Of a stretch of DNA of 59,236 nucleotides, positions 32,001 through 57,146 are shown in pieces. The stretch's first letter is position 1; each line of letters opens with the position of its first letter. A model generated the notes under the pieces. That model saw only the letters and a list, made by a program, of their open reading frames with translations. It was not told where the DNA came from and made no database searches. Made by a program: the position numbers and the translations under genes. Source of the stretch: a virus; the IMG/VR virus record IMGVR_UViG_3300025102_006169, positions 1-59,236 of that record; one strand, 5' to 3'.

Positions 32001-33884
32001 TTCTCTCTCTCTTTCTTTCTTACGCTTTGCTTTGCGAGCTTCTTTTGCATCGCTTCTTATCTCTTTTCTTTTTTCTCGGGCTTCAGGGGTTCTTCTTTCT
32101 GCTCGGGCTTCTTTGCGAGCGGTGCGAGCGTCGATGCGGGCTTGGCGCTTCTGTTCTTTAGAAAGTCCGTTAGATTCATCATCTTCTTCTTGGACTTCTT
32201 CACGAGTCTTACATGTACCTTCTTTTATTTTGGCTAAGACTGCATCAGGAAAAGATAGACCTATACCTTCTAACTGGTCTAGAAGTTGACCTACATTGTC
32301 TTCTCCTAATTTATCGCCGAGACACTCTAAAGAAGACGGATCATTTAAAACATTATTACTATTTGCGCCCAGCAAGACTTCAACGCTAGGAAAAGTAAAC
32401 GTTGTTACAAATTCAAGCCAAGGCGTTGGGGACCGAGCCTGCAAAACAAGATCCATCTCTGGCAGAGCGCCGACATAATACAGAGTTGTTGATCTCTGCA
32501 TTGGAGAATACGCTGTTAAGTCTTGGAATAACTTGCTGTATTTACCGCCCTTGCCAACTCTAATGTTTTCACAACCGGGTTTATTAAATTCTATCTGTCG
32601 CAAAGCTATTGAATCAGTTCCAGTTTCTTCAAATTTAAATGTTATTTTTTCTATCTGGTTGAAGCCTTTAAATGATAACCCTTGATCTTTTATAAATGCA
32701 TTTATCTGATCTCTAAAATCTTCAAGATAATCTGCCTCATCTCTTAAATTTAAGCGAGATGAAGTGCGTTCTCTTACCTTAACCAGCTGGCCACCTTCAT
32801 TAGTATACCAATTGTCAAGTTGATTTTGGTAGACCCTCATTGCTCTAACACTTCTGCGGAACATAGGGAAAAAATCTTTGCCAAGTATAGTTGCCTCTAA
32901 ATCAGATTCAAATTTGGTATCTGGTTCGGCGATGGCCCTTGTGGGAACTCTTTCTAGATATTCTACTGGGACCGAGACTAGAATTCTCGTTCTGGCTGTT
33001 TTCTGGATAGGTATTGAGTACTCGAATTTAGCATAGGGAAGAAGTTCGCTTACAACGTCTCGCTCTTCTGTAACAAGATCATAACCACGAATCGGATCAG
33101 GGATAACAACACCACCAAGCACCCCAACACCAGTCGCAGCCAATGTACCTATTCCTGCGCCGAGAGTAGCAGCTAAAATCGTGCCTGCTGGGGTCTTGCC
33201 TAGTAGCGCGGCTGTTGATGCACCAATTGCTCCCCCGGCCGCTGCGGCGCCGAGGGTCAAGGTAGCTGATAGTCCTGTTTTTAAATCATCTTTACTCGGG
33301 GGTTGTTTAACATAATAATAAACGGTTGCCACTTCAGATTTGTTAAAGTATTGAAGCATTAATTTTATAGCTTCTTGTTTTTTTGTCTTCCGATAATTCT
33401 CATTTTTCAAATCTGTTACTGTTGGTCCGTCAAACACTGGAGATTTTTCGGTCAGAACAAGACTTTGATAACACCTTTTGCCGTCAAAGAAAATGTCTCC
33501 ATCTTCCATTAGCCTATAATCAGGAACATAAGCGTACTCGTTTTCTCTACAAAGCGGACATTCTACTACACCACTAAAATCTATAGGATCACATTCCAAG
33601 AATTTGAAATCTGGGATTGAAGTTTTTTCTCGAAGAGCATTTTCCGGAATGCCTGACGTGGGGGGTAGATTATAATCACCGGGGGTAGCTGCTCTATCGG
33701 ATAGACCAACGTCTTGTTTCTCATCGTCCGTAGGATAGTTGTTAGACGCGGCTGTAAGCGCAGCCTCATCACTGCCGGGGGCAGGGGTGCCGGTGGCGGC
33801 GCCAGTGCCGGAGCGCGTGAAATAGGTATCGTCTGCGAACTCTTCTAAAGACTCTCTGCCTTTTCCGTCCTTAATTTTTCCCAT
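26043..33884 (-). CDS. Giant baseplate/tail protein with peptidoglycan-binding-like domain
   Basis: A 2613-residue protein starting at ATG 33884 with AGGACA upstream. In order: a CPLC pair near residue 100; a Gly/Ala-rich hydrophobic stretch with small-residue repeats at about 200-262, a possible glycine-zipper membrane segment; an extremely charged Arg/Lys/Glu helical region at about 560-700 (ARTARKEARAERR, KKEREREKAERRLRL), probably coiled coil; a PG_binding_1-like domain at about 878-942 (LGTTGDDVQVVEESLLFLGY, then VEVLNQFQRDNDL); another hydrophobic helix near 1110-1150; and a histidine cluster at about 2331-2380 (HTHEYEID, GHVHYHEI, THRHN). The rest is unrecognised. Position before gp25 suggests a hub, wedge or tail-tip protein that meets the host wall. 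A tape-measure role is an alternative, less likely given the downstream position of other hub genes. The modules were identified by eye. Confidence 0.6.
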   Translation of the reverse strand: MGKIKDGKGRESLEEFADDTYFTRSGTGAATGTPAPGSDEAALTAASNNYPTDDEKQDVGLSDRAATPGDYNLPPTSGIPENALREKTSIPDFKFLECDPIDFSGVVECPLCRENEYAYVPDYRLMEDGDIFFDGKRCYQSLVLTEKSPVFDGPTVTDLKNENYRKTKKQEAIKLMLQYFNKSEVATVYYYVKQPPSKDDLKTGLSATLTLGAAAAGGAIGASTAALLGKTPAGTILAATLGAGIGTLAATGVGVLGGVVIPDPIRGYDLVTEERDVVSELLPYAKFEYSIPIQKTARTRILVSVPVEYLERVPTRAIAEPDTKFESDLEATILGKDFFPMFRRSVRAMRVYQNQLDNWYTNEGGQLVKVRERTSSRLNLRDEADYLEDFRDQINAFIKDQGLSFKGFNQIEKITFKFEETGTDSIALRQIEFNKPGCENIRVGKGGKYSKLFQDLTAYSPMQRSTTLYYVGALPEMDLVLQARSPTPWLEFVTTFTFPSVEVLLGANSNNVLNDPSSLECLGDKLGEDNVGQLLDQLEGIGLSFPDAVLAKIKEGTCKTREEVQEEDDESNGLSKEQKRQARIDARTARKEARAERRTPEAREKRKEIRSDAKEARKAKRKKEREREKAERRLRLEKEDPYLFIVIEEIEAEIAKRKLTNSNFLQNKKDNKNLKRRQYKRNLRKADRDLKELFFQRLNDRLKWCGWLALSLRAADCVAQGIGEQTAIGLLTEAAFKSMSDAHLERVFAGLPPEEQQKVFDTLEEDVKGLPAPWDTNYIGGSYSGPGFSLAGGPPATNPTSLKNREEELKKREANEILESLGVEPNPDASLDEIYEEIGKESTEALDEVLGRFETQLPTDDTENPAADYEPWVNTDDVFNVELGTTGDDVQVVEESLLFLGYDINVDREFTPASVEVLNQFQRDNDLPETDSIDTNTLQRIRLAVDRRVQDIRDAQPTADDPPVRSRTANDPGIFGIGYSEGNFSFGGVGSDNPGSGGTYGQALAGFNKVLVDAYRNAILKSVGADVLLNELNKLPGAPIIASFIKNIPCKPNPPWAMNPRIDNFMSTLVVGFETETCKWDFDLTTPQGVLPNEAEFNIFTMIYEAAKEALKEAIIAAMMAAAKLILSKIGQIACDAIATLGASLLDLYDGNDHFRDLLKQNMCPDASDDALHSALKDIFSVFADDERSCLETLTNSEMGDFIDDLSVMLTQAQIVQLISGTATAETLTLAVEVAKVSGSECIKDIFSDPDAFTTFFPGLEIFLPDDYDDVLNGDLDRPVFPCSDETANQINDIRCDLLGFKGLTPEECREQLDDIKDKAVQDLADIANIINNGPLADVPPIIGDQTCPADGIYNTNDPVLSDVAGQVASLLFIPIEEGHIRDLMSPINFFTGHGGVLNAILADTKGRPWKKHNWMVRHFGSPNSADLGFFEFASDNAIKDPDGGFFEPAPMDIYGTKLSGREGKGNSFFGRSTGGFPPTVGAHMAHELLKLEPEFKTKITPEGYANVSDAIDDFEQTFNTNNRRIRRRKKYVEAFIDEFDLENKTTWAAKFAQAASDLRRGVDFKLFGDDLDKNDLKFKNYTPEDRALRVLQGKDISIAGQSIGKKPKKWSSKNKRAAGTSGETFVEFYGEKARLLDLPDTSSADIQLDFKTYKDEAEDATPNFEFSLQYDYNLFDDDGNLLPDNNYRVKVVETHRSPSGGGAQLRRQLKKQGSDVPPKSLLDEGDYSFTSYDLELPSSRTIELQQFIDTLEVSDEIKDSYQIEHIFRYFERIITDATDKNLTEGDKNRLRRYFSDSNFDVISGSFLKRIANIISTGRVDLSPETDSEDEPSDSFLQPDVLEGQNKREQKNHEQIGLEYIAPGFLFGYDPFKEPDIIYLDNETYGGVLGKLFPDKVPPPFYVQEQRYAGWMDIAQALVPEVDGCEPARRHLLDLKPLAQQSAQLGTELLEDYRLEFDPLCAQESPFDRIMSASDAGKIDGAIRAIIRIYVLDVFLRAVPVFTQFGLSDANYDGLLQTFVAERMRQGLLTDGTPATGTQDEEFYHRFLEQCVNTIVRKADAGLIKVDEVSDDWSQEEFVALNNIIQSVDRFYTRNDGKLAALSNAAISGQSIIQRAISPKASSRTVNIGSGSAKFSKTAAKIAKKAAFEKMIRQNEEDALIILKRFIREEFEVIKNDFNQRIPPSIDNINHLFLLNENWIRGGVFGEGPLDVMSDPTDPDTFVSENIVTTPAINKMKEVFKKAGSQFGDVLSNAFEDRLQAWPFVLEKYIKIIEKDSPPTEVRDRPENLYNVVNISDWDSYVKQKKSEGLKGMISDLWGNPALSGETEKIEDHTHEYEIDENGNGRTSEHVSANGHVHYHEIIDGVLQKESLLGDEETHRHNIPIIGWKFGLRINYIPHPDDPNIDAFVGSLAEVSKESVMNEKAFKVKSPNGDRFVIPIASAELDIPDQEYDLFDPDSYDVYCLIEELIEKQEYKFFFEYLFPLSTFNSLMAIYSTMGFFASIGNSGFPSKGGDLWEMPGGNHGKKFRKWVRGPNAFKKSKQAARDVFTVIYEASQAIDFTHENKYGYPDRPTSIRDAIRPRVNFEDGLRWWQRGRRIFNRPFDSLGDECDD
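26743..26891 (-). other. Histidine (HxH) cluster within the giant 2613-residue protein
   Basis: This stretch encodes HTHEYEID, GHVHYHEI and THRHN in about 50 residues. Repeated H-x-H pairs bind iron or zinc at the trimeric tips of several phage spikes and fibres, for example T4 gp12 and P2 gpV. Here it may mark a metal-bound trimer or a hinge. Metal binding is inferred. Confidence 0.45.
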
Positions 33885-37775: not shown

Positions 37776-37976
37776 TCAATCCTCCTCAGAATCCTCAAAA
37801 TCTTCTTCTAATTTAACCAACGGAGGATTAATAACCACCAATCCAGTTTCAGAAAGACGAAATTTAAAACCTTTTAAAACTGGAACAATGTCGGATTGCT
37901 CTAGTAAAGATTTTTGTAGGGCCATCATTAAGGCTCCCATTGCTTGATCCGATAAAAGCATTTCTTGATTACTCAT
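37776..37976 (-). CDS. Small hypothetical protein
   Basis: A 66-residue protein from the ATG at 37976, which has AAGGAG six to seven bases upstream; a longer frame back to 38021 lacks a ribosome site and would overlap the UDP-glucose dehydrogenase gene by 53 bases. The sequence has a helix with methionines (LLSDQAMGALMMALQKSLLEQ), a short beta hairpin (GFKFRLSETGLVVINPP) and an acidic tail (EEDFEDSEED). Family not recognised. Confidence 0.6.
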   Translation of the reverse strand: MSNQEMLLSDQAMGALMMALQKSLLEQSDIVPVLKGFKFRLSETGLVVINPPLVKLEEDFEDSEED

Positions 37977-38811
37977 TTTTTTCTCCTTTTGTAACAGCTC
38001 CATCAATGTTGAGCCAATCATGTTCTTTACGAACTTCCATGTTTTTTTTCCATGATGCTTTTAACATAACAGGTTCTACGCCGTTTGTCAATGAATAAAA
38101 TGTTAAAGCATTCAAATCTTTTGGAAAACATTTTCCTCCAAAACCATTATGACCATCTGGGCCGGGAACTTGAAGGTGGCTTTTACCTATTCTTTCATCA
38201 TAGAGCGCCAACTTAACTACGTCGTTATAATCGGCTCCAGAAACATCACAAATTTGTCTCATCTCATTTGCAAAAGATACTTTTGTAGCCAAGAAAGTAT
38301 TGATAAAGTATTTTACGGTTTCAGCAGTTTTCCAATCAGTCGTAAAATAGTATTTATCTTCAAATACCGATTGAAGTAACCTAACACATTCCGCTGTGTC
38401 TTCTTTGTGGCCACCAAAAATCATACGATTACAGTTTCGAAAATCTTCAATGTGATTTGCTTCTGTAAGAAACTCCGGGCTAAAAACAATTCTTATGTTG
38501 GGGAACCTGTCTTTTATTTCTTCGCATGTGCCCGGAACCACTGTGGATTTTAAAATAATAATGTTGTCTTGATAGTTTTGATAAATTTGCCCCATTGCGT
38601 CAAAAATTATAGACAGATCACACTCACCATTATCATACATTGGGGTTGGCAACGCTACAAAAATTATCTCTGCCTCACCAACAACTTCTTTAATGCTATC
38701 CCTGTTTGAAAGGGCAGGTTTTCTGTCATAGATGACAAACTCATAATCATTTTTTAAATTTTCATAAATTGCGGAGCCTACAAAACCATTTCCAATAAGA
38801 CCTATCTTCAT
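37969..38811 (-). CDS. UDP-glucose 6-dehydrogenase-like protein, short form
   Basis: A 280-residue NAD-dependent sugar-nucleotide dehydrogenase, which makes UDP-glucuronic acid (or a related uronic acid) in two oxidation steps. Visible motifs: Rossmann GLIGNGFVGSAI at 4-15; LPTPMYDNGECDL; LKSTVVPGT; SPEFLTEANHIEDF; the helix AETVKYFINTFLATKVSFANEM; and the active-site segment VPGPDGHNGFGGKCFPKDL with the catalytic Cys. Bacterial Ugd is about 390-450 residues; this one stops shortly after the central domain and lacks most of the C-terminal UDP-binding domain. AAGGAGGAG precedes the ATG. It is the last sugar gene of the cassette and overlaps the epimerase. Its substrate could also be another NDP-hexose. 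Confidence 0.88.
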   Translation of the reverse strand: MKIGLIGNGFVGSAIYENLKNDYEFVIYDRKPALSNRDSIKEVVGEAEIIFVALPTPMYDNGECDLSIIFDAMGQIYQNYQDNIIILKSTVVPGTCEEIKDRFPNIRIVFSPEFLTEANHIEDFRNCNRMIFGGHKEDTAECVRLLQSVFEDKYYFTTDWKTAETVKYFINTFLATKVSFANEMRQICDVSGADYNDVVKLALYDERIGKSHLQVPGPDGHNGFGGKCFPKDLNALTFYSLTNGVEPVMLKASWKKNMEVRKEHDWLNIDGAVTKGEKNE

Positions 38812-39686
38812 GATAACTCCTCCTTAAGAAGCTTAAAGCAATCTCTAATACCTTGTTCAGCTTCGTGTTTTGGATTCCAGCCTAATAACTTGAGCGGTTC
38901 TATAAATGCCTTTGTTTCAAAAACATCGTTTTGTCGTGGGTCAACATAATCAAACACAACCTCTGGAAAGAACTCAAGTGCAATATCTTTAATTGCGTTC
39001 AAGGAAATGTTATCGCCAGTCCCAATGTCAAACCACTCTCCATTAAATTTACCTTCATAATTCATGCAAAAAATGTTAGCCGACACAACGTCTAGTTTAT
39101 GCGCCATGTCTCTTAGTTGTCCTCCGTCGCCCGTAATAAAAGGGTTCTTGTTGTCACGGATGTATTGCATCCAATTAGCCACTGCTGTGGCGTATGGGCC
39201 ATCTGCCTTTTGGTCCGGGGAGTACACATTAAAATAACGCAGACACACAGTGTCCAGCCCATAGAGCCTTGACCAGACTCCACACATGCTTTCAGGCATC
39301 AATTTAGATGCCCCATAGGGATTCTCTGGTCCTTCTCCGTTTCCTGTAACCGAAGAAGAGCTTGAATAAATAACTCGTTTAGCACCGACTGCTCTTGCAA
39401 ATTCCAACACATATAGCGAACTTAATACATTGTTCTCCAAAACATGAACTGGTTGTTCTATGCTATACACAACCCTTGGTATGGCCGCTAAATGAAAAAT
39501 GTATTCGGGCTTAAAATTAAACCAATGTGGGTGAAATTTTCCGTCACTATCTGGCTTTAAACACTCTAAGATGTCATGTCCGTCAACTAAATCAATGCCC
39601 AGAACATCATGACCAGCCTGCTTTAATTGCTTATAAACTTCAGACCCTATGTACCCCTTGTGGCCCGTGACTAAACATCTAGACAT
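38808..39686 (-). CDS. NAD-dependent sugar-nucleotide epimerase/dehydratase
   Basis: A 292-residue extended short-chain dehydrogenase. It has the NAD-binding start CLVTGHKGYIGSEVYKQL (G-x-x-G-x-x-G), HLAAIPRVVYS, the SSSSSVTG serine region and the catalytic Y-G-A-S-K. Further on are LRYFNVYSPDQ and the C-terminal LLGWNP typical of UDP-glucose 4-epimerase/UDP-glucuronate 4-epimerase relatives. It would interconvert or modify nucleotide sugars, possibly the product of the adjacent dehydrogenase. The start has GGAGGAGTAG upstream, and the gene overlaps its neighbours on both sides by a few bases. The exact substrate cannot be read from the sequence. Confidence 0.87.
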   Translation of the reverse strand: MSRCLVTGHKGYIGSEVYKQLKQAGHDVLGIDLVDGHDILECLKPDSDGKFHPHWFNFKPEYIFHLAAIPRVVYSIEQPVHVLENNVLSSLYVLEFARAVGAKRVIYSSSSSVTGNGEGPENPYGASKLMPESMCGVWSRLYGLDTVCLRYFNVYSPDQKADGPYATAVANWMQYIRDNKNPFITGDGGQLRDMAHKLDVVSANIFCMNYEGKFNGEWFDIGTGDNISLNAIKDIALEFFPEVVFDYVDPRQNDVFETKAFIEPLKLLGWNPKHEAEQGIRDCFKLLKEELS

Positions 39687-40509
39687 CTACTCCTCCAAAT
39701 TGTGGTGGCTTGTCCCAAAAAAGCTTTGCTTTTTCGTAATCATCATCCCTAAGTGTAATCTTGTCATTCAAAACATAATCTTCAAAATCTATGATTGGAT
39801 ACACATCAAGAACAGTTTTTTTACTAGCATTCCAAAACTTAACTGTGTCATCTTTTGCGAAAAAGTTTTTATGTGCTAAAGAATGTACGTTACGCATTTG
39901 GTTGTTGATTTTATACACCTTTTCGGGTGGGATGTCTGCTTGGTAAGAACTGTCAAAGTGGTTTGGATCATTCTTGGTGCCGCGATCACCAGTCCAGCCA
40001 AGGTCCGCGCCAACAATTATAATCTCGCTAAAACCCATGTAGTAAGCTAACTGAAGTGCTAAATTCATAGTGGTGCCTGACTTGTCAATCCTTTCAGATA
40101 CATCAGTAGAAAATGAATATTCTAAAATGTCACCGTTGGTGGCAGGTTTATTCTCAGACATTGAATTAAACCACTTAATTCTGGGGAAACCGAAACTAGG
40201 ATCTATCTGTGGTCGGAACATTTCGGCTATAAAAGATGTCGTTTCACGATGAGATACGGCCTCTCTTACAGATCTAGTCCAATCGGCACCCCATACAGGA
40301 TGTCGAACATTAGTAGAGGAAAACAAATAGTAAGTTGGCTTCCAATCCGGGTTCTCTGGGTAGATGAGCGAAATACGATTCATAGCGATAGTATATTCAT
40401 CTGCCAGTAAATCTAAATTTGTCTCTTTCAAGCTGGGGCCATTAGCCACCAAGAATACTCTTTCGCCTTTGTGTAAGTTTTTAAACTCTTTAAACACTTG
40501 GTTCATCAT
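39679..40509 (-). CDS. DUF115/MptE-like protein of polysaccharide clusters
   Basis: A 276-residue protein whose start, GERVFLVANGPSLKETNLDLL and the following YTIAMNRISLIYP, is the signature of the DUF115 (6-hydroxymethylpterin pyrophosphokinase MptE-like) superfamily. Later blocks SGTTMNLALQLAYYMGFSEIIIVGADLGW and HFDSSYQADIPPEK are also typical. In bacterial surface-glycan and flagellin-modification loci such proteins act as glycosyltransferase-like or sugar-phosphate transfer enzymes, for example the Maf family for nonulosonic acid transfer. AAGGAGTT precedes the ATG-ATG start. It overlaps the methyltransferase gene (ATGA). The exact transferase reaction is not known. Confidence 0.75.
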   Translation of the reverse strand: MMNQVFKEFKNLHKGERVFLVANGPSLKETNLDLLADEYTIAMNRISLIYPENPDWKPTYYLFSSTNVRHPVWGADWTRSVREAVSHRETTSFIAEMFRPQIDPSFGFPRIKWFNSMSENKPATNGDILEYSFSTDVSERIDKSGTTMNLALQLAYYMGFSEIIIVGADLGWTGDRGTKNDPNHFDSSYQADIPPEKVYKINNQMRNVHSLAHKNFFAKDDTVKFWNASKKTVLDVYPIIDFEDYVLNDKITLRDDDYEKAKLFWDKPPQFGGVDV

Positions 40510-41894: not shown

Positions 41895-42971
41895 TTAAGT
41901 AAATAAGTTTTTTAAATTACCATTTCTTTCTATTGAGATGCTGGAGCAGGATGGGTATGGGTTTGTGCTGGCAAAATCATTAACAATTATTCTTTTTCCA
42001 TGATTGCAGCCAGATATTATGGTTTTGTATCGTATCTCATTCTCTTTCAGAAATGTCTTAAAGAATTCTAGATACTCATCTGTTCTACTTGTCATAAAAA
42101 TTATTTCGCTACCTTGGTCCGATAATTTTTTTACCAAATCAAAGTTTTCCTTGATCGGCTCAAATGTATTTGACCAATTTTTAGATCCATATTTACCATA
42201 ATTGATAAGCATAACCCCATCGATGTCAAAAATGTAAGTATTAAACCTGTCTCTTTCCTCTTGCCACTCTTTCAAGGTTCCCCAATCAACATAGTTTTTT
42301 GCATCCACAAATTGAAATGCTACTTTCCTGTTTATAAGCAAGTGTGAAATGATGTGACTAACATACAATTCTTTGTTATCAAGCAACACACCAGAATCCA
42401 CAATCTCGTTATAGGATTCAATAAACTGTTCAACCGTGAGGCAGTATACACCCAAACAGATGTTATCGGAAACAATGCTCTTTTCAACAATGTCTTGAAT
42501 TAGGTTATCATCATTTTTTACAATAAAGCTTTTATTCTGTATCTTTTTAACTGTTGATCGTTCGTCAATCCTCATTCCAACAACAAAGTTCTTATCAATG
42601 ATCGATTCTGTGGCCACTAAGCAATCAGTGTCTTTGATTATTATCCGACCTTTAAGGTTTGCAGCTTCTATTGCTCTTAGCACAGTCTCTGGACAAGAAC
42701 TAGTTTCCTGCTCCAAAATGATTACACTCACACTATTTCCAAACGCTTGCTCCAAAACCAAATCAGCTTCAAATTTGTCACAATGCTCTCTAAGAGTCAC
42801 AACATAAGTGTTTTTGTATTTATCATACTCAAATTCTTTCAGCACCTTTTCAATCATCATGTTGCCATCTGGATGTGTGAGCATCCATTTTGGTCGCATA
42901 CCGGGGAACCTAGAAGACTTACCAGCAGCGGGGACGATCAGTGTTATGTCTTTCCTGTTATCGAATGGCAT
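41895..42971 (-). CDS. Sugar (or alcohol) phosphate nucleotidyltransferase fused to HAD phosphatase
   Basis: A 358-residue two-domain protein. Residues about 8-235 are an NTP-transferase: LIVPAAGKSSRFPGMRPKWML (the signature loop and K28) and IIKDTDCLV with the metal-binding acid. Residues about 246-345 are a HAD-type domain: YIFDIDGVM with D249/D251 and FMTSRTDE; the loop III acid may be in VNDFAST. One chain could thus activate a sugar (or polyol/choline-type) phosphate with CTP/UTP/GTP and remove or control a phosphate. It overlaps the APH-like kinase gene by 14 bases, suggesting kinase-then-nucleotidyltransfer steps in the same pathway. The nucleotide used is not known. Confidence 0.8.
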   Translation of the reverse strand: MPFDNRKDITLIVPAAGKSSRFPGMRPKWMLTHPDGNMMIEKVLKEFEYDKYKNTYVVTLREHCDKFEADLVLEQAFGNSVSVIILEQETSSCPETVLRAIEAANLKGRIIIKDTDCLVATESIIDKNFVVGMRIDERSTVKKIQNKSFIVKNDDNLIQDIVEKSIVSDNICLGVYCLTVEQFIESYNEIVDSGVLLDNKELYVSHIISHLLINRKVAFQFVDAKNYVDWGTLKEWQEERDRFNTYIFDIDGVMLINYGKYGSKNWSNTFEPIKENFDLVKKLSDQGSEIIFMTSRTDEYLEFFKTFLKENEIRYKTIISGCNHGKRIIVNDFASTNPYPSCSSISIERNGNLKNLFT

Positions 42972-43761: not shown

Positions 43762-44687
43762 TTCCCGACTGGTCGATTGTATGACATATAGTTTAAAGCG
43801 TTCAGGTCTAAATCCTTTTCAAAATAAATGTATTTTATAGCATTTTTAATTTTTGATTTTTTCAAGTCAGGTGGATTATCAACAATTTCTTTTGTCCAAT
43901 TTTTGATCCAACCCATTTTTTCTCTGGTGTGTGTCGGATTTGAATGTGGCCAAGTTCCTTCCCACTTGTTATAAAAATAATTCCAAGCTGAGAGTTTGTA
44001 AATACCCCCTCTGCTATTATTCCAGATTTGTTGCTGCTCAGAATCGTCTGGCTTTCTTTTTATAATTTCTTTACCTGCATCATTAACCGTAACAAAGTTT
44101 CTATCATCGAATGATTCTATAGGGTAATCAGGCTCGTGATTCAAAAGTATTCCATGAACAATGTCATTAATTGATGTCTTGTCTTTGTTGTAGATTAGTG
44201 CTCTTAAAAAATAATCTGTCTCTTTGTATTGAGCAGGCAAGTTTTCGTCCCACATTCCAATTTTTCTAATTGATTCGGGTTTATAGGCTGTTATTGTATC
44301 TCCGCAGAGGCCTGTCACAAAGGTATAGCCCTTTTGATTGAACAATACATCCAAATGTTCACACCACTTCGGATGAACAACGGCGTCGTTCTGTAGTGTA
44401 ACAAGTATCTCAGTATCTGGTTTTTGTAGATTTACTACGCCATTAATGAATGCTTGATTATAATTTTCTGATACATTTCCATTTGACCAATCGGGTCTTA
44501 GTACATTATGTAACACATTCACTTTATTTTTAAATTCGTCTCGCAGATAAAATTCGGAGTGATTGTTAATTACGTTAACCTCTGTATTTTTCAACTCTGA
44601 GAAGTCTGATTTAAACAGTTTATCAAGCGTATCATTGAGCACATCACATCTTTTATATGTAACAATGTAAACCTTCATTTTTTTCAT
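43758..44687 (-). CDS. GT2-like glycosyltransferase (GT-A fold)
   Basis: About 309 residues from the ATG at 44687, which overlaps the preceding stop as ATGA; the longer frame to 44720 would run 37 bases into that gene. KVYIVTYKRCDVLNDTLDKLF is the usual start of GT-A transferases. VNVINNHSEF and LVTLQNDAVVHPKWCE carry the strand and acidic N-D replacing a D-x-D motif. Later KIGMWDENLPAQYKETDYFLRAL resembles the E-T/D-D acceptor helix of GT2 enzymes. It would add a sugar to the growing glycan. The C-terminal 100 residues (WNYFYNKWEGTWP and a basic helix) are unrecognised. Sugar and linkage are unknown. Confidence 0.75.
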   Translation of the reverse strand: MKKMKVYIVTYKRCDVLNDTLDKLFKSDFSELKNTEVNVINNHSEFYLRDEFKNKVNVLHNVLRPDWSNGNVSENYNQAFINGVVNLQKPDTEILVTLQNDAVVHPKWCEHLDVLFNQKGYTFVTGLCGDTITAYKPESIRKIGMWDENLPAQYKETDYFLRALIYNKDKTSINDIVHGILLNHEPDYPIESFDDRNFVTVNDAGKEIIKRKPDDSEQQQIWNNSRGGIYKLSAWNYFYNKWEGTWPHSNPTHTREKMGWIKNWTKEIVDNPPDLKKSKIKNAIKYIYFEKDLDLNALNYMSYNRPVGK

Positions 44688-45652
44688 AACAGATCTACCC
44701 GTTCTAGACAGTCTGTCCAACTGTTAAACTTGATAGATTTATCATCAATGTAAGCAACTGCGCGTGGTTTTTCAGCCGTTACTTTACTAATAAACTGAGA
44801 TAAGTTGTTACTCTCAAGCCATTCCCAAACAAGTTGAGTACCAGTCTTTCCGTTAACTAGCCCTCTATCTGCTCTAGCCTTGCATGTGTAAACTATAACT
44901 GTATACTTCTCTGACAGAGATTGTAAAGCTTCGTATGAACCTTCAACTGGCTCGTCGTAGATCGTGCCATCGTAATATCCCTTGGAACACCTGTGTATTA
45001 CTCCATCAAAATCAACTCCAATGTTAATTTGCTCATCTGGGTAGCTATGTTTTCTTACCTTGCCACCTTTCCAGTTTAGTTTTTCGAGTTCCTCTGGCGA
45101 GTTTTTCCCGATAGGAGGGCACACGTTCCCAGATGCATGAGTCAGTTGATACGTTAATAAAAGAGTGAGTACTTCAGACGTATGATAATAATCTGCCCCT
45201 AAGACAACTTGAGTAAGATTGTTAACACTTTCTGTGATGGGCACTGAGGTTATCATAGCCACCTCCATGCCATGATCAGTGCCCCATTGTAAGGCCTTAA
45301 TTATGTCGCGCGACTTACCAGAAGAGGAGATGCCAAGCACGAGTGACTTCTTCATTTGTGTTTTGGTTCTAGCAGATGTACGGCTAGAGAGCCAGCTAAC
45401 CATCCATTGATCGAAGCCGACATCATTAATCAGAGAAGTTGCTACAACGCCGCTACCGGGACACATTGCGTTCTTATTACCATTTGATAACCTAGTGATG
45501 TCTACTGCTGCATGGTCTGCAACCGCAAGGTTACCACCGTGTCCAAGCACATAAATTTCATTACATCGGTTAAATTTCTCTTGAAGTTCTTTCCAAGAAC
45601 TTGAATTTACTGTCTTTACAAACTTTTCGTCTAAATTTTCAAAATTAAGCAT
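44684..45652 (-). CDS. SIS sugar-phosphate isomerase fused to HAD phosphatase-like domain
   Basis: A 322-residue fusion. Residues about 25-180 are a SIS domain of the GmhA/KdsD type: YVLGHGGNLAVADHAAVDI, LINDVGFDQWMVSWL and the phosphate loop LGISSSGKSRDIIKAL. Residues about 208-320 are a HAD-like domain: IGVDFDGVIH (D214/D216), VIVYTCKARAD and VAYIDDKSIKF. Phosphoheptose isomerase (GmhA) and heptose bisphosphate phosphatase (GmhB) are normally separate proteins; fusing an isomerase with a phosphatase hints at a heptose or arabinose-5-phosphate/Kdo-type precursor. Its ATG overlaps the aldolase stop and its stop overlaps the next glycosyltransferase. The two active sites appear intact, but the substrate is an inference. 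Confidence 0.8.
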   Translation of the reverse strand: MLNFENLDEKFVKTVNSSSWKELQEKFNRCNEIYVLGHGGNLAVADHAAVDITRLSNGNKNAMCPGSGVVATSLINDVGFDQWMVSWLSSRTSARTKTQMKKSLVLGISSSGKSRDIIKALQWGTDHGMEVAMITSVPITESVNNLTQVVLGADYYHTSEVLTLLLTYQLTHASGNVCPPIGKNSPEELEKLNWKGGKVRKHSYPDEQINIGVDFDGVIHRCSKGYYDGTIYDEPVEGSYEALQSLSEKYTVIVYTCKARADRGLVNGKTGTQLVWEWLESNNLSQFISKVTAEKPRAVAYIDDKSIKFNSWTDCLERVDLL

Positions 45653-46325
45653 TTTTCATTACCCCCTCATAATATTCTAATAAAGCTATCGTATCCATAC
45701 CTAAACATTTTAGTCCATAGTCCTGATAATTAGCAATTTGTTGATCTACATTGTTTGGAATGTGTACGGCCAATTTATTAGTCGGTATTTTATCTTTTAC
45801 TTTATTAATGTAACCCATAAACACAGGGTTGTCAAATTTTCCGGGCAAATTTAAACTTAAAGATAAGTCATAAGGTCCTATTAAATAATAATCAAAATTA
45901 TAACCAACTATCTTGTCGAGGTTGTCAACTCCGGTCTTCGTTTCAATTTGTGGTATTAAAATTGGATCCTCTGTCAGTAGGCCGTCTCGGCCCCAAGAAT
46001 TACCCCTGACAAGACCAAGGCCCCTGTTACCCCTTGGTGTGTAACAGGAATACTCAATAATTTTCTCGGCCTGCGAAGCACTCTCTATGGTGGAAAAAAT
46101 AAGACCAGTGGCGCCAGAATCTAAACAATGCCGTATCAAAGTGTTTGAAATTTCTGTCAGTCTAACAAAGCACTGCTTTCCGCACAGTCTTGCCACTTGA
46201 ATACATGAAGATAATGTCTCGCGACTATAACACCCATGTTCTGTATCTAATACAACACCATTACCATTTTTACAAAGTATCTCAGTGATTACAGGGGATG
46301 CAATTTGTTGCCATGATAAAATCAT
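45645..46325 (-). CDS. HpcH/HpaI-family class II aldolase
   Basis: A 226-residue protein of the HpcH/HpaI aldolase family, which joins or splits pyruvate and aldehydes with a divalent metal. Conserved blocks: VVLDTEHGCYSRE (catalytic H30), FVRLTE (R55), CLDSGATGLIFSTIESASQAEKI, YTPRGNRGLGLVRGNSWG, ILIPQIETKTGVDNLDKI with metal ligand E128, and YLIGPYDLSLSLNLPG with D153. In this cassette it may make a 2-keto-3-deoxy acid, feeding the adjacent cytidylyltransferase. It is slightly shorter than the usual 250-residue family members. Its start overlaps the cytidylyltransferase gene (ATGA). Catabolic use in host metabolism seems less likely. Confidence 0.85.
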   Translation of the reverse strand: MILSWQQIASPVITEILCKNGNGVVLDTEHGCYSRETLSSCIQVARLCGKQCFVRLTEISNTLIRHCLDSGATGLIFSTIESASQAEKIIEYSCYTPRGNRGLGLVRGNSWGRDGLLTEDPILIPQIETKTGVDNLDKIVGYNFDYYLIGPYDLSLSLNLPGKFDNPVFMGYINKVKDKIPTNKLAVHIPNNVDQQIANYQDYGLKCLGMDTIALLEYYEGVMKNA

Positions 46326-46978
46326 TTATAATATACCTCCTCCAAAGCTTTAACTAATTCCCAATCAGATTCCGTGTCAATGTCAAGATTTTCTGGGTGT
46401 TTAACCGCATAAAAGAATGGTTTAACTCCTATTCTGTTGTGAGATTTTATGAAATCTATGGATTTAAAAATGTAAAACGCCGAATTTTCCTCGTATAGAG
46501 TTGGCAAATCTTGTGTTTGTTCCAGCTTCATTGGATTGTGATTAACGGGACAAGACCCATACGATTCATTCCTCCAGAACCTAGAATTGTGTTTCGTGCA
46601 AGAAACAACCGAATCATATTTAGGGCCGATTTGTGATGCGGCCATAAAAACAGTCGAGTGATTCAGAAAAGGACTGGTGACATGTATTTGTGCTACAACA
46701 TCACCAATGTCATGTCTCACAATAAAATCTTTGATTAAGTTACAAACTGAAACTTTGTCGCCTCGCAAATCTGGGTGTCTCATGTACGGCACCACATTTT
46801 TTAGACGGTTATCTTTGCTAATCTCTTTGATTATTTCTTCGCTATCAGTGTCAACAAAAACATCACAATTGGTATATTTAAGCAAAGTATGCTTATACAA
46901 AGGCTCGCCATTGAAGATTCTATAATTTTTCTTTGGAACTCTTTGGGAATTGTGTTTAATCGGTATGAAAATTTTCAT
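46322..46978 (-). CDS. CMP-ulosonic acid cytidylyltransferase (NeuA/KdsB-like)
   Basis: About 218 residues from the ATG at 46978; a longer frame to 47023 runs into the sialyltransferase-like gene and lacks a better ribosome site. Motifs: IPIKHNSQRVPKKNYRIFNG (the nucleotide-binding loop with R13 and K16-K17), FVDTDSEEI, AQIHVTSPFL, EENSAFYIF, and the closing LDIDTESDWELV, typical of acylneuraminate and Kdo cytidylyltransferases. It would activate a sialic-, legionaminic- or Kdo-type sugar as CMP-sugar. Placed between the sialyltransferase-like gene and the aldolase, it links synthesis to transfer. Which acid it activates cannot be told. Confidence 0.87.
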   Translation of the reverse strand: MKIFIPIKHNSQRVPKKNYRIFNGEPLYKHTLLKYTNCDVFVDTDSEEIIKEISKDNRLKNVVPYMRHPDLRGDKVSVCNLIKDFIVRHDIGDVVAQIHVTSPFLNHSTVFMAASQIGPKYDSVVSCTKHNSRFWRNESYGSCPVNHNPMKLEQTQDLPTLYEENSAFYIFKSIDFIKSHNRIGVKPFFYAVKHPENLDIDTESDWELVKALEEVYYK

Positions 46979-47738
46979 TACTAACTCTTTTAAAGTCCTC
47001 TTTACTGAACTTTTGCATTTCAAGTATCATTTTTAAAGTCTTGTCTAAATTAACTGCCTCGTTATCCAGCAAGGTTTCCTTAGCATATTCCCACATGTTC
47101 TTTTGTATGTGTCTTTTTGAGGCAAATGCCATGTCTGCAAACTCTTGTTCGGAACAGTTCTTTTCGTTCTCTACCCCTGACTTTTGTCCCGGTATAAACC
47201 CATCCAAGTAAAAACTGAACCCATAAATTGATAACTTACTTGGATTCATTTCTAGTAAATCATAGATAGATAAAAACCCTGTATTAGGTTTACATTTGAC
47301 TGCATCTGAAATTTTGTTATTAAAATTGTGATCTATAATTCGTATTGGTATTAGCTCAGAAATAAATTCTGCTTTTTTTACATCTATCAAACCGTGAAAA
47401 TGAGTTCCCTTAGAGTGCCCTGCATAGTCTGAAACAGGAGGGGCTACAATGATTTGGATTTTATGTTTTTCTTTTAGTTCTGTTCGGTCTAATTTGCCAG
47501 CTTGTTGTGCCCTTTCTATTAGACATGAGTAGAGAACATCTGTCCTACTACCAACATCATTCTTATAAACCAAAGCGGTCTCGATTCCCCTATTAATCCT
47601 GACAACTATGTCATGTGATTCTATCTCAGGACCGTAACCCGAGCCGTGCATGTATTTTGCTGGTCCTACAAGGGCTACAGATGATCCGCTAATGAAGTCT
47701 TTAAAACCTGTCTCATGTGTGTTTGTAATTTGTATCAT
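46956..47738 (-). CDS. GT29 sialyltransferase-like glycosyltransferase
   Basis: A 260-residue protein with two stretches resembling sialylmotifs. Residues 20-51 (SVALVGPAKYMHGSG, then IESHDIVVRINRG) resemble sialylmotif L, where HD-x-V-x-R-x-N is the family mark. Residues 148-177 (VKCKPNTGFLSIYDLL, then SKLSIYGFSFY) resemble sialylmotif S. There is no signal peptide or membrane anchor, unlike eukaryotic Golgi enzymes, and the usual C-terminal VS motif is not obvious. GT29 transfers sialic acid (or Kdo/other ulosonic acids) from CMP donors; it is mainly known from animals, plants and protists, with some bacterial and viral members. It sits beside the CMP-sugar synthetase and the DUF579 methyltransferase. 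Activity is inferred. Confidence 0.75.
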   Translation of the reverse strand: MIQITNTHETGFKDFISGSSVALVGPAKYMHGSGYGPEIESHDIVVRINRGIETALVYKNDVGSRTDVLYSCLIERAQQAGKLDRTELKEKHKIQIIVAPPVSDYAGHSKGTHFHGLIDVKKAEFISELIPIRIIDHNFNNKISDAVKCKPNTGFLSIYDLLEMNPSKLSIYGFSFYLDGFIPGQKSGVENEKNCSEQEFADMAFASKRHIQKNMWEYAKETLLDNEAVNLDKTLKMILEMQKFSKEDFKRVSNENFHTD

Positions 47739-48322
47739 TTAGTTTCAGCTTTTTTGACAATTGCAATTTTGTTTTCTACAACTTTAATCAATCCTTCTTC
47801 ACCAAAGAAATGTTTGGTATAAGTATTTTCCACAAATCTGCCCATGTCATCCACAATACAAATACCATTGTCCTTTAGCAGCCTGTGGGCGTTATAAATG
47901 CTTTGCATTCTGCCCGGACCCTTGTACGGACGCGGAGGTTGGTGTCCAAGTGGAGCATCCACTAGAATTAAATCCCAATTTTCCCCTTCGATGTTGTTGG
48001 GCATTTCTAAAAACAGTTTATCAGTATCGGAAAAATTAATCTTTTCATGATCTTCAACTTTTGTGGTATATTTAATCGGATAAATCTCAAGCTCTGTTTC
48101 ACTAAATTTATCAATCCACTCAATGTCATCCTCCAAGAAAACAGTTCTCCCACCCTTATTAAGTTCAGCCCATGCATGGGCATCCTGACCTAAACCAAAA
48201 ACTAAAAAATTGCACGGAGCTAATAGTTCCAGAGCGTAACCTATTTCATAATATTGCGGGCTTGACATCAGACCTTTTGAAAAATTGTGTGCATTTTTCT
48301 GCATGATTTTTCGAAAATTCAT
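47735..48322 (-). CDS. DUF579 glucuronoxylan 4-O-methyltransferase-like protein
   Basis: A 195-residue protein that matches the plant GXM/IRX15 (DUF579, PF04669) pattern in several ordered blocks: CNFLVFGLGQDAHAWAELN (37-55), GGRTVFLEDDIEWI (57-70), NWDLILVDAPLGHQP (115-129), GPGRMQSIYNAHRL (135-148) and a closing VDDMGRFVE (157-165). In plants these enzymes methylate O-4 of glucuronic acid in xylan with SAM. The plant proteins have an N-terminal Golgi anchor; this one has none and is only the catalytic core. The cassette also encodes a UDP-glucose dehydrogenase that would supply glucuronate. Its ATG directly follows the previous stop and its end overlaps the GT29-like gene. The acceptor sugar is inferred. 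Confidence 0.82.
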   Translation of the reverse strand: MNFRKIMQKNAHNFSKGLMSSPQYYEIGYALELLAPCNFLVFGLGQDAHAWAELNKGGRTVFLEDDIEWIDKFSETELEIYPIKYTTKVEDHEKINFSDTDKLFLEMPNNIEGENWDLILVDAPLGHQPPRPYKGPGRMQSIYNAHRLLKDNGICIVDDMGRFVENTYTKHFFGEEGLIKVVENKIAIVKKAETK

Positions 48323-49066
48323 TTAATACTCCATGAAGTTTTGCTTGCAAATTTTTAAAGCTTCGTCTAAGCTTTCTATCTCATAAGTTCCCTGATTGAT
48401 TCTAGTGTCTGCGTGCATGTGATAAATTCTAGGCGCTAAATGTTCTTCGCCGAATTCATGATGAAACTTTCTCTGTTTTTCCCTGTTAGCTTTGCTACGA
48501 ATGTTGTATTCAACAGGAAAAACATAAAATTTCAAGCCACCCTGAATAGCTTGCCAGAGGGAGAATCTAAATGAGGCTTGATCCCAAGGGCAGTAATTGT
48601 AATACCGATAAAAGTTTTTTCTCCACTCTTTCCAAAGATTCATAACCTTTTCGCCACTGTTGAATACTAAAACACCAGTGTTAATCTCAGAAAAAGCATA
48701 CGGTATGTCTCTATACTCGGGCATAACATTTGAGTACTTAATTCTTTTTCTGGCTAGATCGTGTGTGCCAGCAAGATCAAAATTATCTAATAAGTCATAC
48801 ATGTCTTCTATGTTTCTGTCGATTATTGTGTCTGTATCTAGAAACAAAGTCTGTTCGTATGGTGTTTGATCAATGTAATCAATCTTTGGTCTTAAATGCT
48901 TGGCATTAATAATTTTAACCTCGTCAACAAATGGGGAGTCCACTTCCTGATCAATAAACGCTGTTATGTGTAGATTTGGATTGTGTTTTTTGACTGATTC
49001 AGCTGAGATCAGCATCTCCTTGACGAAGTTTTCTCCAAAAGCTATGTAAATGACACCCCTATTCAT
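48323..49066 (-). CDS. GT8-like glycosyltransferase (GT-A, D-x-D motif)
   Basis: A 247-residue GT-A-type transferase. GVIYIAFGENFVKEMLISAESVKKHN begins the nucleotide-binding fold; TLFLDTDTII is the D-x-D metal/nucleotide motif at 73-81; FSEINTGVLVFN and CPWDQASF resemble the acceptor-side blocks of GT8 and related nucleotide-diphospho-sugar transferases. The C-terminal half ends with HMHADTRINQGTYEI. No membrane anchor. It is placed between a GT-B transferase and the DUF579 gene, touching both (TAA-ATG at the latter). The sugar transferred is unknown. Confidence 0.75.
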   Translation of the reverse strand: MNRGVIYIAFGENFVKEMLISAESVKKHNPNLHITAFIDQEVDSPFVDEVKIINAKHLRPKIDYIDQTPYEQTLFLDTDTIIDRNIEDMYDLLDNFDLAGTHDLARKRIKYSNVMPEYRDIPYAFSEINTGVLVFNSGEKVMNLWKEWRKNFYRYYNYCPWDQASFRFSLWQAIQGGLKFYVFPVEYNIRSKANREKQRKFHHEFGEEHLAPRIYHMHADTRINQGTYEIESLDEALKICKQNFMEY

Positions 49067-49067
49067 G

Positions 49068-50051
49068 TTAAATCTCCTCTATTCTATCGTATAAATGTTT
49101 GGCCCAGTTAAGTGGATTATATAATCTATCAAATTCTTTCTTGGCGTTGTCAGCAGTTTGCTGCCTTTTTTCTGCGTCTCTTAAACAACTTAACGCTTTA
49201 TACCAGCTGTTAGTATTTTGTGCTACAAACCCACATTCGGGCGATCCAAGGATGTGTAAATTGCTTGGCGTTAAGTCTCCAACCACTGGTATACCGAGTT
49301 GGTGAAACACAAAGTTTCTTCCCGCATTTGACTTATTCTTAAAGCGAGTTACATAATCAGTATTATACCTACCCAGATCAACAGATGTTCCCTGCTTATC
49401 ATCGCAAGGATCAATGTTGGTTACATTTGGCACTACCCCTATGTCACAACTAAGCAAATCGTCTCTAACCGTATTAAAGTTCCACTGTTTTATTATTATG
49501 TTTTTGATTTTAGGCTTACCAGTTTTCCATTTAAAATGTTGATTAGAAGTTATAACAAAGAGTTCTAAATCAATCTCTTTGTCGAGCGTCTCTAAAGATT
49601 GTTTCAAACCGTAATCAAATTTGCCCAAGTGAGTGTGACTACCGTGAAACCCTATTCTTAACACATCTTTGTCTTTGTGTTTCTTATAGTGATCACATGA
49701 CTGATACATGTTTTCTATAAGCGGAAACAAAAATACATTCTTGTGGTGTGATAAGCTTATCTGCTCCTCTATAGATCCTACGATTACAAAATCAGGCCTT
49801 ACTTTTGAGTCTGCTGACAGGTTAATGACTCCGACTTTTCGATTCTCGTTCATAATTGCTTCGGCTATAGACGCGTCTGCTTTTGAACAGATTATTATTT
49901 CAGAGCCACTACCATAAGCCACTGTAGGAGAATTTGTTATTTTACAAGAAACCCCACATGATTTTAAATATTGGCTAAGATCATTAACCCAAATCCTATA
50001 CGATCCGACATTTATAGATCTGTCAGTTGCTAAAAAAGTAATTGTTTTCAC
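49068..50051 (-). CDS. GT-B (GT4-like) glycosyltransferase, GTG start
   Basis: A 327-residue GT-B-fold transferase. The start codon is GTG at 50051, overlapping the preceding stop (TAGTG). The N-terminal domain begins TITFLATDRSINVGSYRIWVNDL. The C-terminal domain has LRIGFHGSHTHLGKFDYG (the sugar-nucleotide loop), IIIKQWNFNTVRDDLLSCDIGVVPN, then KSNAGRNFVFHQLGIPVVGDLTPS, the equivalent of the GT4 E-x7-E/G-x-P block. It differs from the classical consensus, so the family assignment beyond GT-B is uncertain. Expected cytoplasmic role: adding a sugar to the lipid-linked glycan. Confidence 0.7.
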   Translation of the reverse strand: MKTITFLATDRSINVGSYRIWVNDLSQYLKSCGVSCKITNSPTVAYGSGSEIIICSKADASIAEAIMNENRKVGVINLSADSKVRPDFVIVGSIEEQISLSHHKNVFLFPLIENMYQSCDHYKKHKDKDVLRIGFHGSHTHLGKFDYGLKQSLETLDKEIDLELFVITSNQHFKWKTGKPKIKNIIIKQWNFNTVRDDLLSCDIGVVPNVTNIDPCDDKQGTSVDLGRYNTDYVTRFKNKSNAGRNFVFHQLGIPVVGDLTPSNLHILGSPECGFVAQNTNSWYKALSCLRDAEKRQQTADNAKKEFDRLYNPLNWAKHLYDRIEEI

Positions 50052-56381: not shown

Positions 56382-57146
56382 TCATCTGCAATGTTCTGTT
56401 TTATAAAAATCACAGTATTTACAAGATAATCTATTCTTAATAGAAATCTTTCTCTTTATATTAATAACCGCTTTTTCGAGGAATGTCAAGGCATTTTTTA
56501 CTTTTATTTTGCCGCTTGTAACTCGAAAAATCTCTACATTGTTCTTCTTGGCGGTTCTCTTAAGAAGACCAAAGTGTGTTTCGATCTTGTCAATCGGGAT
56601 GTTGTGTTTCTTACCCCAGAAGACTTTGTATAGGGTCAACTGATAGTTGATGATCTTATCCGCTTTCTTTCTGGCGTCCCAGCCCCATCCACAAGTCTTC
56701 CAGTCAAGGATGTGATACTTACCATCCTTAGTCTTGACAACGAGGTCTATGAAGCCTTTAAACTTCAAATCGTGGCCCTCGATGTCCTCGTAAAGCATTT
56801 CTTCTGTGGAGATAACCTCACAGTCCTCGAAGTAGTTGTCAAGCTCTTCACGAAACGACGAAACGATGGGCACATACTGGCCCATCATTTGCTCTCGTAG
56901 GGTCTTGTCGATCTCTACTTCTTTCTTTTCTAATGAAACGATTTCTTTTTCGAACTCTTCCAGAAAGTGTTTCTCTCTATTCAAATTCTCATTTAGTAGC
57001 CCATGTTCACAAACACTATGAATCGCAGTTCCAAAAGCAGTGTGTAGATTGCCTTTGAAGCCTGCGATCTTTTCGACGTATTGCAGTCGGTGTTTGTGTG
57101 GGCACTCGTTCCAAGTTTTTATCTCTGAATAAGAGACATGTGCCAT
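56382..57146 (-). CDS. Cas4-like PD-(D/E)XK exonuclease (RecB family)
   Basis: A 254-residue nuclease. Features in order: C15 in NECPHKH; H43 in FGTAIH; the GFIDLV strand with D134; ILDWKTC with D148 and K150; and INYQLTLY with Q169, together the PD-(D/E)XK active site. The C-terminus is CKYCDFYKTEHC (C242, C245, C253), and with C15 it would hold a 4Fe-4S cluster as in Cas4 and AddB. Phage forms act as exonucleases in DNA processing or recombination. The gene directly follows the 118-residue unknown (TAA-ATG). No CRISPR locus is present, so an adaptation role is unlikely here. Confidence 0.88.
   Translation of the reverse strand: MAHVSYSEIKTWNECPHKHRLQYVEKIAGFKGNLHTAFGTAIHSVCEHGLLNENLNREKHFLEEFEKEIVSLEKKEVEIDKTLREQMMGQYVPIVSSFREELDNYFEDCEVISTEEMLYEDIEGHDLKFKGFIDLVVKTKDGKYHILDWKTCGWGWDARKKADKIINYQLTLYKVFWGKKHNIPIDKIETHFGLLKRTAKKNNVEIFRVTSGKIKVKNALTFLEKAVINIKRKISIKNRLSCKYCDFYKTEHCR

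Follow-up and report, generated by a model that had tools for sequence, protein, structure and literature searches.

The window, by which we mean the whole 59,236-nucleotide stretch of viral DNA analyzed here (IMG/VR record IMGVR_UViG_3300025102_006169), encodes a 195-residue protein that profile matches support as a methyltransferase of the DUF579/GXM family (PF21729), consisting of the catalytic core only. The protein very probably methylates a sugar, whose identity we infer from the family and from gene context. More specifically, we consider it likely to be a SAM-dependent, probably divalent-cation-dependent sugar O-methyltransferase, which would act on a phage-specified glycan after a neighboring glycosyltransferase (GT). 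The phage proteins represent a distinct branch, apparently not yet described in the open-access literature that we searched, of a known enzyme family: we found no treatment of bacterial or phage DUF579/GXM members there, and the family is discussed in connection with the cell walls of plants (and green algae).

The open reading frame starts with ATG and occupies positions 47735–48322 on the minus strand; the plus strand across the same interval is rich in stop codons. Its product contains all four sequence blocks on which the first-pass annotation had based its family assignment, in the order quoted there (NFLVFGLGQD, GGRTVFLED, WDLILVDAP and GPGRMQSIYNA). The sole significant Pfam match, obtained with hmmscan, was PF21729 (IRX15/IRX15L/GXM; E 5.8e-31, 107.9 bits), whose curated cut-off of 27.8 bits is also exceeded by members from other phages and from bacteria. 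The next-best Pfam model, a generic methyltransferase, reached only E 0.099; a clearly better score for another methyltransferase family, the outcome that the annotation had said would overturn it, was thus not seen. TIGR01627, a plant-derived NCBI domain model named after Arabidopsis, likewise matched (E 1.1e-28), at 100.5 bits and thus under its trusted cut-off of 149.85 bits. Together with the AlphaFold model described below, these matches support the catalytic-core-only part of the soluble form that had been proposed. The profile suggested for the check turned out to be outdated: PF04669 is today PBDC1, not DUF579/GXM, and matched neither the window record nor the control genomes. With the current accession, PF21729, the family assignment holds.

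The family is present on at least 57 IMG/VR contigs (cited below by their L numbers). A single-sequence scan of IMG/VR gave no match; alignment queries were needed, and successive scans with them yielded 10, 38 and 57 GXM loci. We also identified GXM on one plasmid, Priestia megaterium NZ_CP109861 (WP_221785236.1, 37% identity, annotated as 'TIGR01627 domain-containing protein'), and on six bacterial contigs, from Thermoactinomyces, Lentisphaerota, Opitutales, Planctomycetota and, twice, Chlamydiae. The first-pass annotation had named plant Golgi enzymes as the characterized members; the family as a whole extends to bacteria and dozens of phage contigs. Among 398, 294 and 289 sampled genomes of three phyla (~980 in total), GXM occurred only in the seed genomes, and the family is therefore rare and scattered in bacteria. 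No relatives of GXM, nor of the GT29 or GT8-like products of the window, were found among 50,697 records of named phage genomes, and a search of named phage genomes returned no close DNA match to the surrounding gene run. In a maximum-likelihood tree of phage and bacterial rows, the window protein lies inside an all-phage clade of 11 rows with support of 99/97 (hereafter the window clade), its nearest neighbors being L033 (58%), L037 and L038. The remaining phage lineages are separate from this clade and group with or near bacteria.

An AlphaFold2 model based on a 27-sequence alignment had a pLDDT of 90.2 and a pTM of 0.89. The protein has no significant sequence relatives in PDB. VIA-align comparisons gave Z-scores of 14.0 for MycF, 13.6 for SpnH (rhamnosyl 4'-O), 12.9 for COMT, 12.7 for MycE and 12.4 for NovP, where rows at most 1 Z apart count as tied. 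The modeled structure corresponds to a predicted class I, cation-dependent O-methyltransferase fold. SpnH, MycF, NovP and COMT share this fold, and the Asp residues with which strands 4 and 5 of the window protein end may occupy the places where those enzymes bind their metal; the four differ from the window protein in lacking sequence similarity detectable in PDB searches and in having small-molecule substrates. Since tRNA enzymes such as TrmR are almost tied with sugar O-methyltransferases in the VIA-align ranking, the fold alone names no substrate.

Two alternatives follow the fold. The methyl group might go to a nucleotide sugar, or to a neutral sugar such as rhamnose, xylose or galactose: SpnH, MycF and NovP act on neutral deoxysugars, even if the fold is silent on substrate, and the authors who found AGM1/AGM2 to be required for 4-O-methylation of glucuronic acid (GlcA) on arabinogalactan proposed that further DUF579 proteins might have different sugars as their targets (PMC6508755). 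We regard such a target as unlikely, as O-4 of polymer-bound GlcA is the site methylated by all characterized members, in xylan for GXM and in arabinogalactan for AGM (PMC3921138, PMC6508755), and PtrGXMs methylate GlcA already attached to xylo-oligomers, with no action on free GlcA or UDP-GlcA (PMC3921138). It is very improbable that the protein is an RNA or small-molecule methyltransferase sitting in the cassette by chance. Although RNA methyltransferases, MnmM among them, appear in the top Foldseek rows, and many class I enzymes share the fold, the sequence family is specific to DUF579 and is repeatedly fused to glycosyltransferases.

Nineteen residues are invariant across the 27 aligned family members. 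These include G43, G45 and D47 in the SAM loop, E64 after strand 2, W116, D117, P124, G137 and E165, and further D122, R138, D159 and R162. In the model, D122 is just past strand 116–121 (strand 4), while D158/D159 close strand 149–158 (strand 5); these may correspond to the positions at which COMT- and NovP-type enzymes hold their metal through a ligand triad. Clustering all GXM loci at 80% identity gives 33 clusters, 22 of which have His at position 158. The other 11 have Asp there and comprise the window clade, the fusion proteins of L059/L060, and L108. The window protein thus has Asp at the strand-5 site, where most prokaryotic members, and presumably the plant GXMs, have His. The window clade additionally carries an extra GHxPP loop immediately ahead of the GPGRM block. 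Judging from these two sequence features, the specificity of the clade may have shifted, which counts against the sugar O-methyltransferase reading preferred here.

Similarity to plant GXM1-3/GXMT1 is evident in the common PF21729 family and in the shared SAM-loop, WDxxxVDxP and GRM blocks. On the other hand, the window protein falls short of the TIGR01627 cut-off, contains the GHxPP insert, has no membrane anchor that we could see and has no xylan genes nearby. Bacterial TIGR01627 proteins (Priestia, Thermoactinomyces, PVC MAGs) show 32–38% identity to it and the same invariant residues, but differ in their VHDC motif and in their higher scores against the plant model. Those scores are ~140–160 bits (Priestia 159.8, L015 155.6, L014 147.5, L012 146.8, L017 139.5), compared with 100–114 bits for the window clade, and the trusted cut-off is reached by Priestia and by the Chlamydiae protein of L015. 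Since bacterial members are nearer the plant model than the phage clade is, a recent transfer from plant to phage is unsupported as far as this score comparison goes. The label 'plant-xylan-type' given earlier is too strong in the light of these scores and of the Asp at the strand-5 site. Moreover, GXMT1 orthologs occur in chlorophytes that make no xylan (2018, PMC5902652), so the family precedes its xylan role.

The GXM gene belongs to 21 same-strand genes that extend from 56374 down to 37969 on the minus strand, mostly overlapping and with gaps of at most 13 bases. Judging from the predicted products, this is a glycan-synthesis run. In addition to several GT4- and GT2-type glycosyltransferases and three other methyltransferases (Pfam, NCBIfam), it holds the following features:

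49068–50051, minus strand: putative glycosyltransferase, conserved beside GXM or the GT8-like gene (no Pfam match; role suggested by context)
48323–49066, minus strand: GT8-like GT-A glycosyltransferase, directly upstream of GXM (PF03407 E 4.4e-6, PF01501 E 1.1e-3)
47735–48322, minus strand: predicted DUF579/GXM SAM-dependent methyltransferase, 195 aa (PF21729, TIGR01627, AlphaFold model, fold)
46956–47738, minus strand: GT29 sialyltransferase-like protein (PF00777 E 7.9e-10; synteny; 4-base overlap with GXM)
46322–47023, minus strand: CMP-sugar (PseF-like) cytidylyltransferase (PF02348 E 5.2e-18, TIGR03584 E 1e-17)
45645–46325, minus strand: HpcH/HpaI-type pyruvate aldolase (PF03328 E 2.2e-13, TIGR02311 E 1.6e-21)
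44684–45652, minus strand: GmhA-like SIS domain (TIGR00441 E 1.4e-7, PF01380 E 0.0067), then a possible HAD domain suggested by the sequence
41895–42971, minus strand: nucleotidyltransferase-like and HAD-like protein (weak Pfam matches)
39679–40509, minus strand: MptE-like protein, weakly similar to WaaZ Kdo transferase (PF01973 E 8.5e-12, TIGR04437 E 6.6e-5)
38808–39686, minus strand: NAD-dependent epimerase/dehydratase, SDR (PF01370 E 7.5e-40; best equivalogs far under cut-off)
37969–38811, minus strand: short UDP-glucose/GDP-mannose dehydrogenase, 280 aa (PF00984 E 3.1e-24, PF03721 E 1.4e-21, TIGR03026 over cut-off)

A structure search with the GT8-like protein was led by GT8 folds, namely LARGE1, GlyE, glycogenin and LgtC (model pLDDT 72, with a poor C-terminal part). 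The GT8-like gene adjoins GXM, on one side or the other, in all window-clade cassettes except L042 and L047, and the putative glycosyltransferase at 49068–50051 is conserved in the cassettes of relatives at 312–402 bits. The core, consisting of the latter gene, GXM, GT8, GT29, CMP synthetase and HpaI, recurs with only minor changes of order in L002, L033–L041 and L043–L046; the MptE-like gene is also conserved in the cassette. A scan for promoters and terminators gave counts equal to those in shuffled sequence. Elsewhere in the window there are two very large ORFs, possibly structural, at 12055–22254 (3399 aa) and 26043–33884 (2613 aa). The exonuclease gene at 56382–57146 has only relatives of 25–30%, in Flavobacterium, Microcystis and Psychrobacillus phages.

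Glycosyltransferase neighbors and fusions are stronger evidence for a glycan role than the UDP-glucose dehydrogenase (UGDH) discussed below. Glycosyltransferases adjoin GXM in most lineages, and at least four clusters have the two joined in one polypeptide. Two phage polypeptides, L059:8522-11245 (907 aa) and L060:8258-11224 (988 aa), each combine GXM with three glycosyltransferase domains, one GT47/RXYLT1-like or GT25, one GT8 (PF01501 E 6.5e-25 and 7e-23) and one GT34-like. In L008 a GT8-like domain, with a match under the cut-off, is fused to GXM, and in L108 GXM is fused to a GT-A-like domain that is homologous (88–107 bits) to a separate gene directly following GXM in eight phage contigs (L078, L085, L086, L088, L091–L093 and L105). 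In L103, GXM is preceded by 370 residues that appear GT-B-like by eye and matched no Pfam model. The neighbor of GXM is TOD1/MUCI70 in L012 and a PLOD-type glycosyltransferase in L015 and, by similarity, in L016. A pooled Pfam scan of 60 neighbors returned GT8, Nucleotid_trans and GT29 as the commonest families; GT29 was not seen outside the window clade, and we rejected it as a family-wide partner. A DxD-type motif occurred in 21 of 50 GXM neighbors and in 165 of 803 background ORFs from the same loci (p 0.0007), a crude comparison with non-independent lineages and a GT-rich background. The recurrence of these neighbors and fusions supports a glycan role, but not every locus conforms to it. 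L017 has no obvious glycan gene near GXM. L056:1460-4620 (also L055, L057 and L058) contains a divergent GXM-like ORF where a family-B DNA polymerase gene is split in two, with no adjacent glycan genes; T4-like phages carry homing endonucleases in such a place.

Which sugar is methylated can be approached through the cassette. The HpaI-type aldolase, PseF-like CMP-synthetase, GT29 and GmhA-like SIS genes stand side by side at 44684–47738. This predicted gene content, in which no PEP-dependent synthase is obvious, suggests that a CMP-activated 3-deoxy-ulosonic acid is made by a non-canonical route. A sequence resembling D-2-hydroxyacid dehydrogenases by eye is fused to the GT29-like protein in L039:11360-12958 and directly precedes it in L044:11297-12873. 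One could then propose that GXM methylates not GlcA but an acidic 3-deoxy-ulosonate-type sugar, apparently produced by the HpaI aldolase, CMP-synthetase and GT29, or a residue adjoining it. Within the window clade the steadiest partners are indeed GT8-like, GT29, CMP-synthetase and HpaI aldolase rather than UGDH, and an acidic sugar would still suit the conserved Arg residues. However, GXM lineages beyond this clade have no GT29, and L042 and L047 keep GXM with no GT29 or CMP genes in view (these contigs start at or near GXM). We consider an ulosonate target unlikely, on a par with a neutral sugar, yet both are live rivals to a uronic acid.

The first-pass annotation had reasoned from a UGDH in the same operon to a 4-O-methylated uronic acid. 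The gene is indeed in the same run, as the 12th gene downstream of GXM, ~9 kb away. It retains the Rossmann glycines and the catalytic-Cys motif GFGGKCFPKD but, at 280 aa, lacks the C-terminal domain that full-length enzymes have. Since similar dehydrogenases of 262–289 aa are present in related phages (contigs L002, L033, L037, L042 and L047), this appears to be a conserved short form. UGDH also occurs on L036 and, ~40 kb from the GXM gene, on L053. By contrast, we did not find it on the GXM-core-bearing contigs L039, L040 (200,819 b), L041 (114,716 b), L044 and L046 (132,284 b), which may be incomplete. UGDH is therefore not a constant partner, and as an obligate one it was rejected for the clade as seen. 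Accordingly, the step from UGDH to the modified sugar is weak, whereas family chemistry keeps a methylated uronic acid as the leading guess.

The full form of that proposal, in which GlcA on a phage glycan is 4-O-methylated and UDP-GlcA comes from the phage's own short UGDH, is a serious candidate to which we would give somewhat less than an even chance. It agrees with the O-4 specificity of every characterized family member, with UGDH in the window run and on six related contigs, and with the Priestia plasmid, whose polysaccharide gene neighborhood places galU 2 kb and UGDH 14 kb from GXM. Its difficulties are the contigs with no UGDH, for which the host may supply UDP-GlcA, and the missing C-terminal domain; PF00984 could also denote another nucleotide-sugar dehydrogenase.

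In the reading that we prefer, a sugar O-methyltransferase acting after a glycosyltransferase, the GT8-like protein (48323–49066) or another GT of the cassette would first add a sugar to the growing phage-specified glycan. GXM would then methylate a hydroxyl of the added sugar, using SAM and probably a divalent cation. By family precedent, namely GlcA 4-O-methylation on a polymer and not on UDP-GlcA, the sugar would most likely be a uronic acid and the position O-4; R138 or R162, both of them invariant, would presumably hold the carboxylate. The order of events would parallel that in plants, where GT8 proteins attach GlcA and DUF579 proteins then methylate it (PMC5902652), and in the window, too, a GT8-like gene adjoins GXM. 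The plant AGM1/AGM2 case illustrates that the acceptor polymer can change within the family while GlcA O-4 stays (PMC6508755). The finished glycan may be destined for the virion or for the host surface, the sequence being compatible with either.

Showing that a phage member is active would give this family, which has no solved structure, a small soluble model enzyme, and thanks to the repeated GT fusions the question of the acceptor can be tested directly. Such activity would also be a sign that phages or their hosts carry methylated acidic glycans, which might protect them against glycosidases, receptors or rival phages. Tentatively, and with more doubt than confidence, we suggest a broader picture: many uncultured phages may build an acidic glycan that bears a uronic or ulosonic acid in methylated form, GXM may be a plug-in module for varied glycosyltransferases, and the plant xylan enzymes may be a branch of an older prokaryote and phage family. 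An active phage enzyme would cast new light on how one step in wood formation originated.
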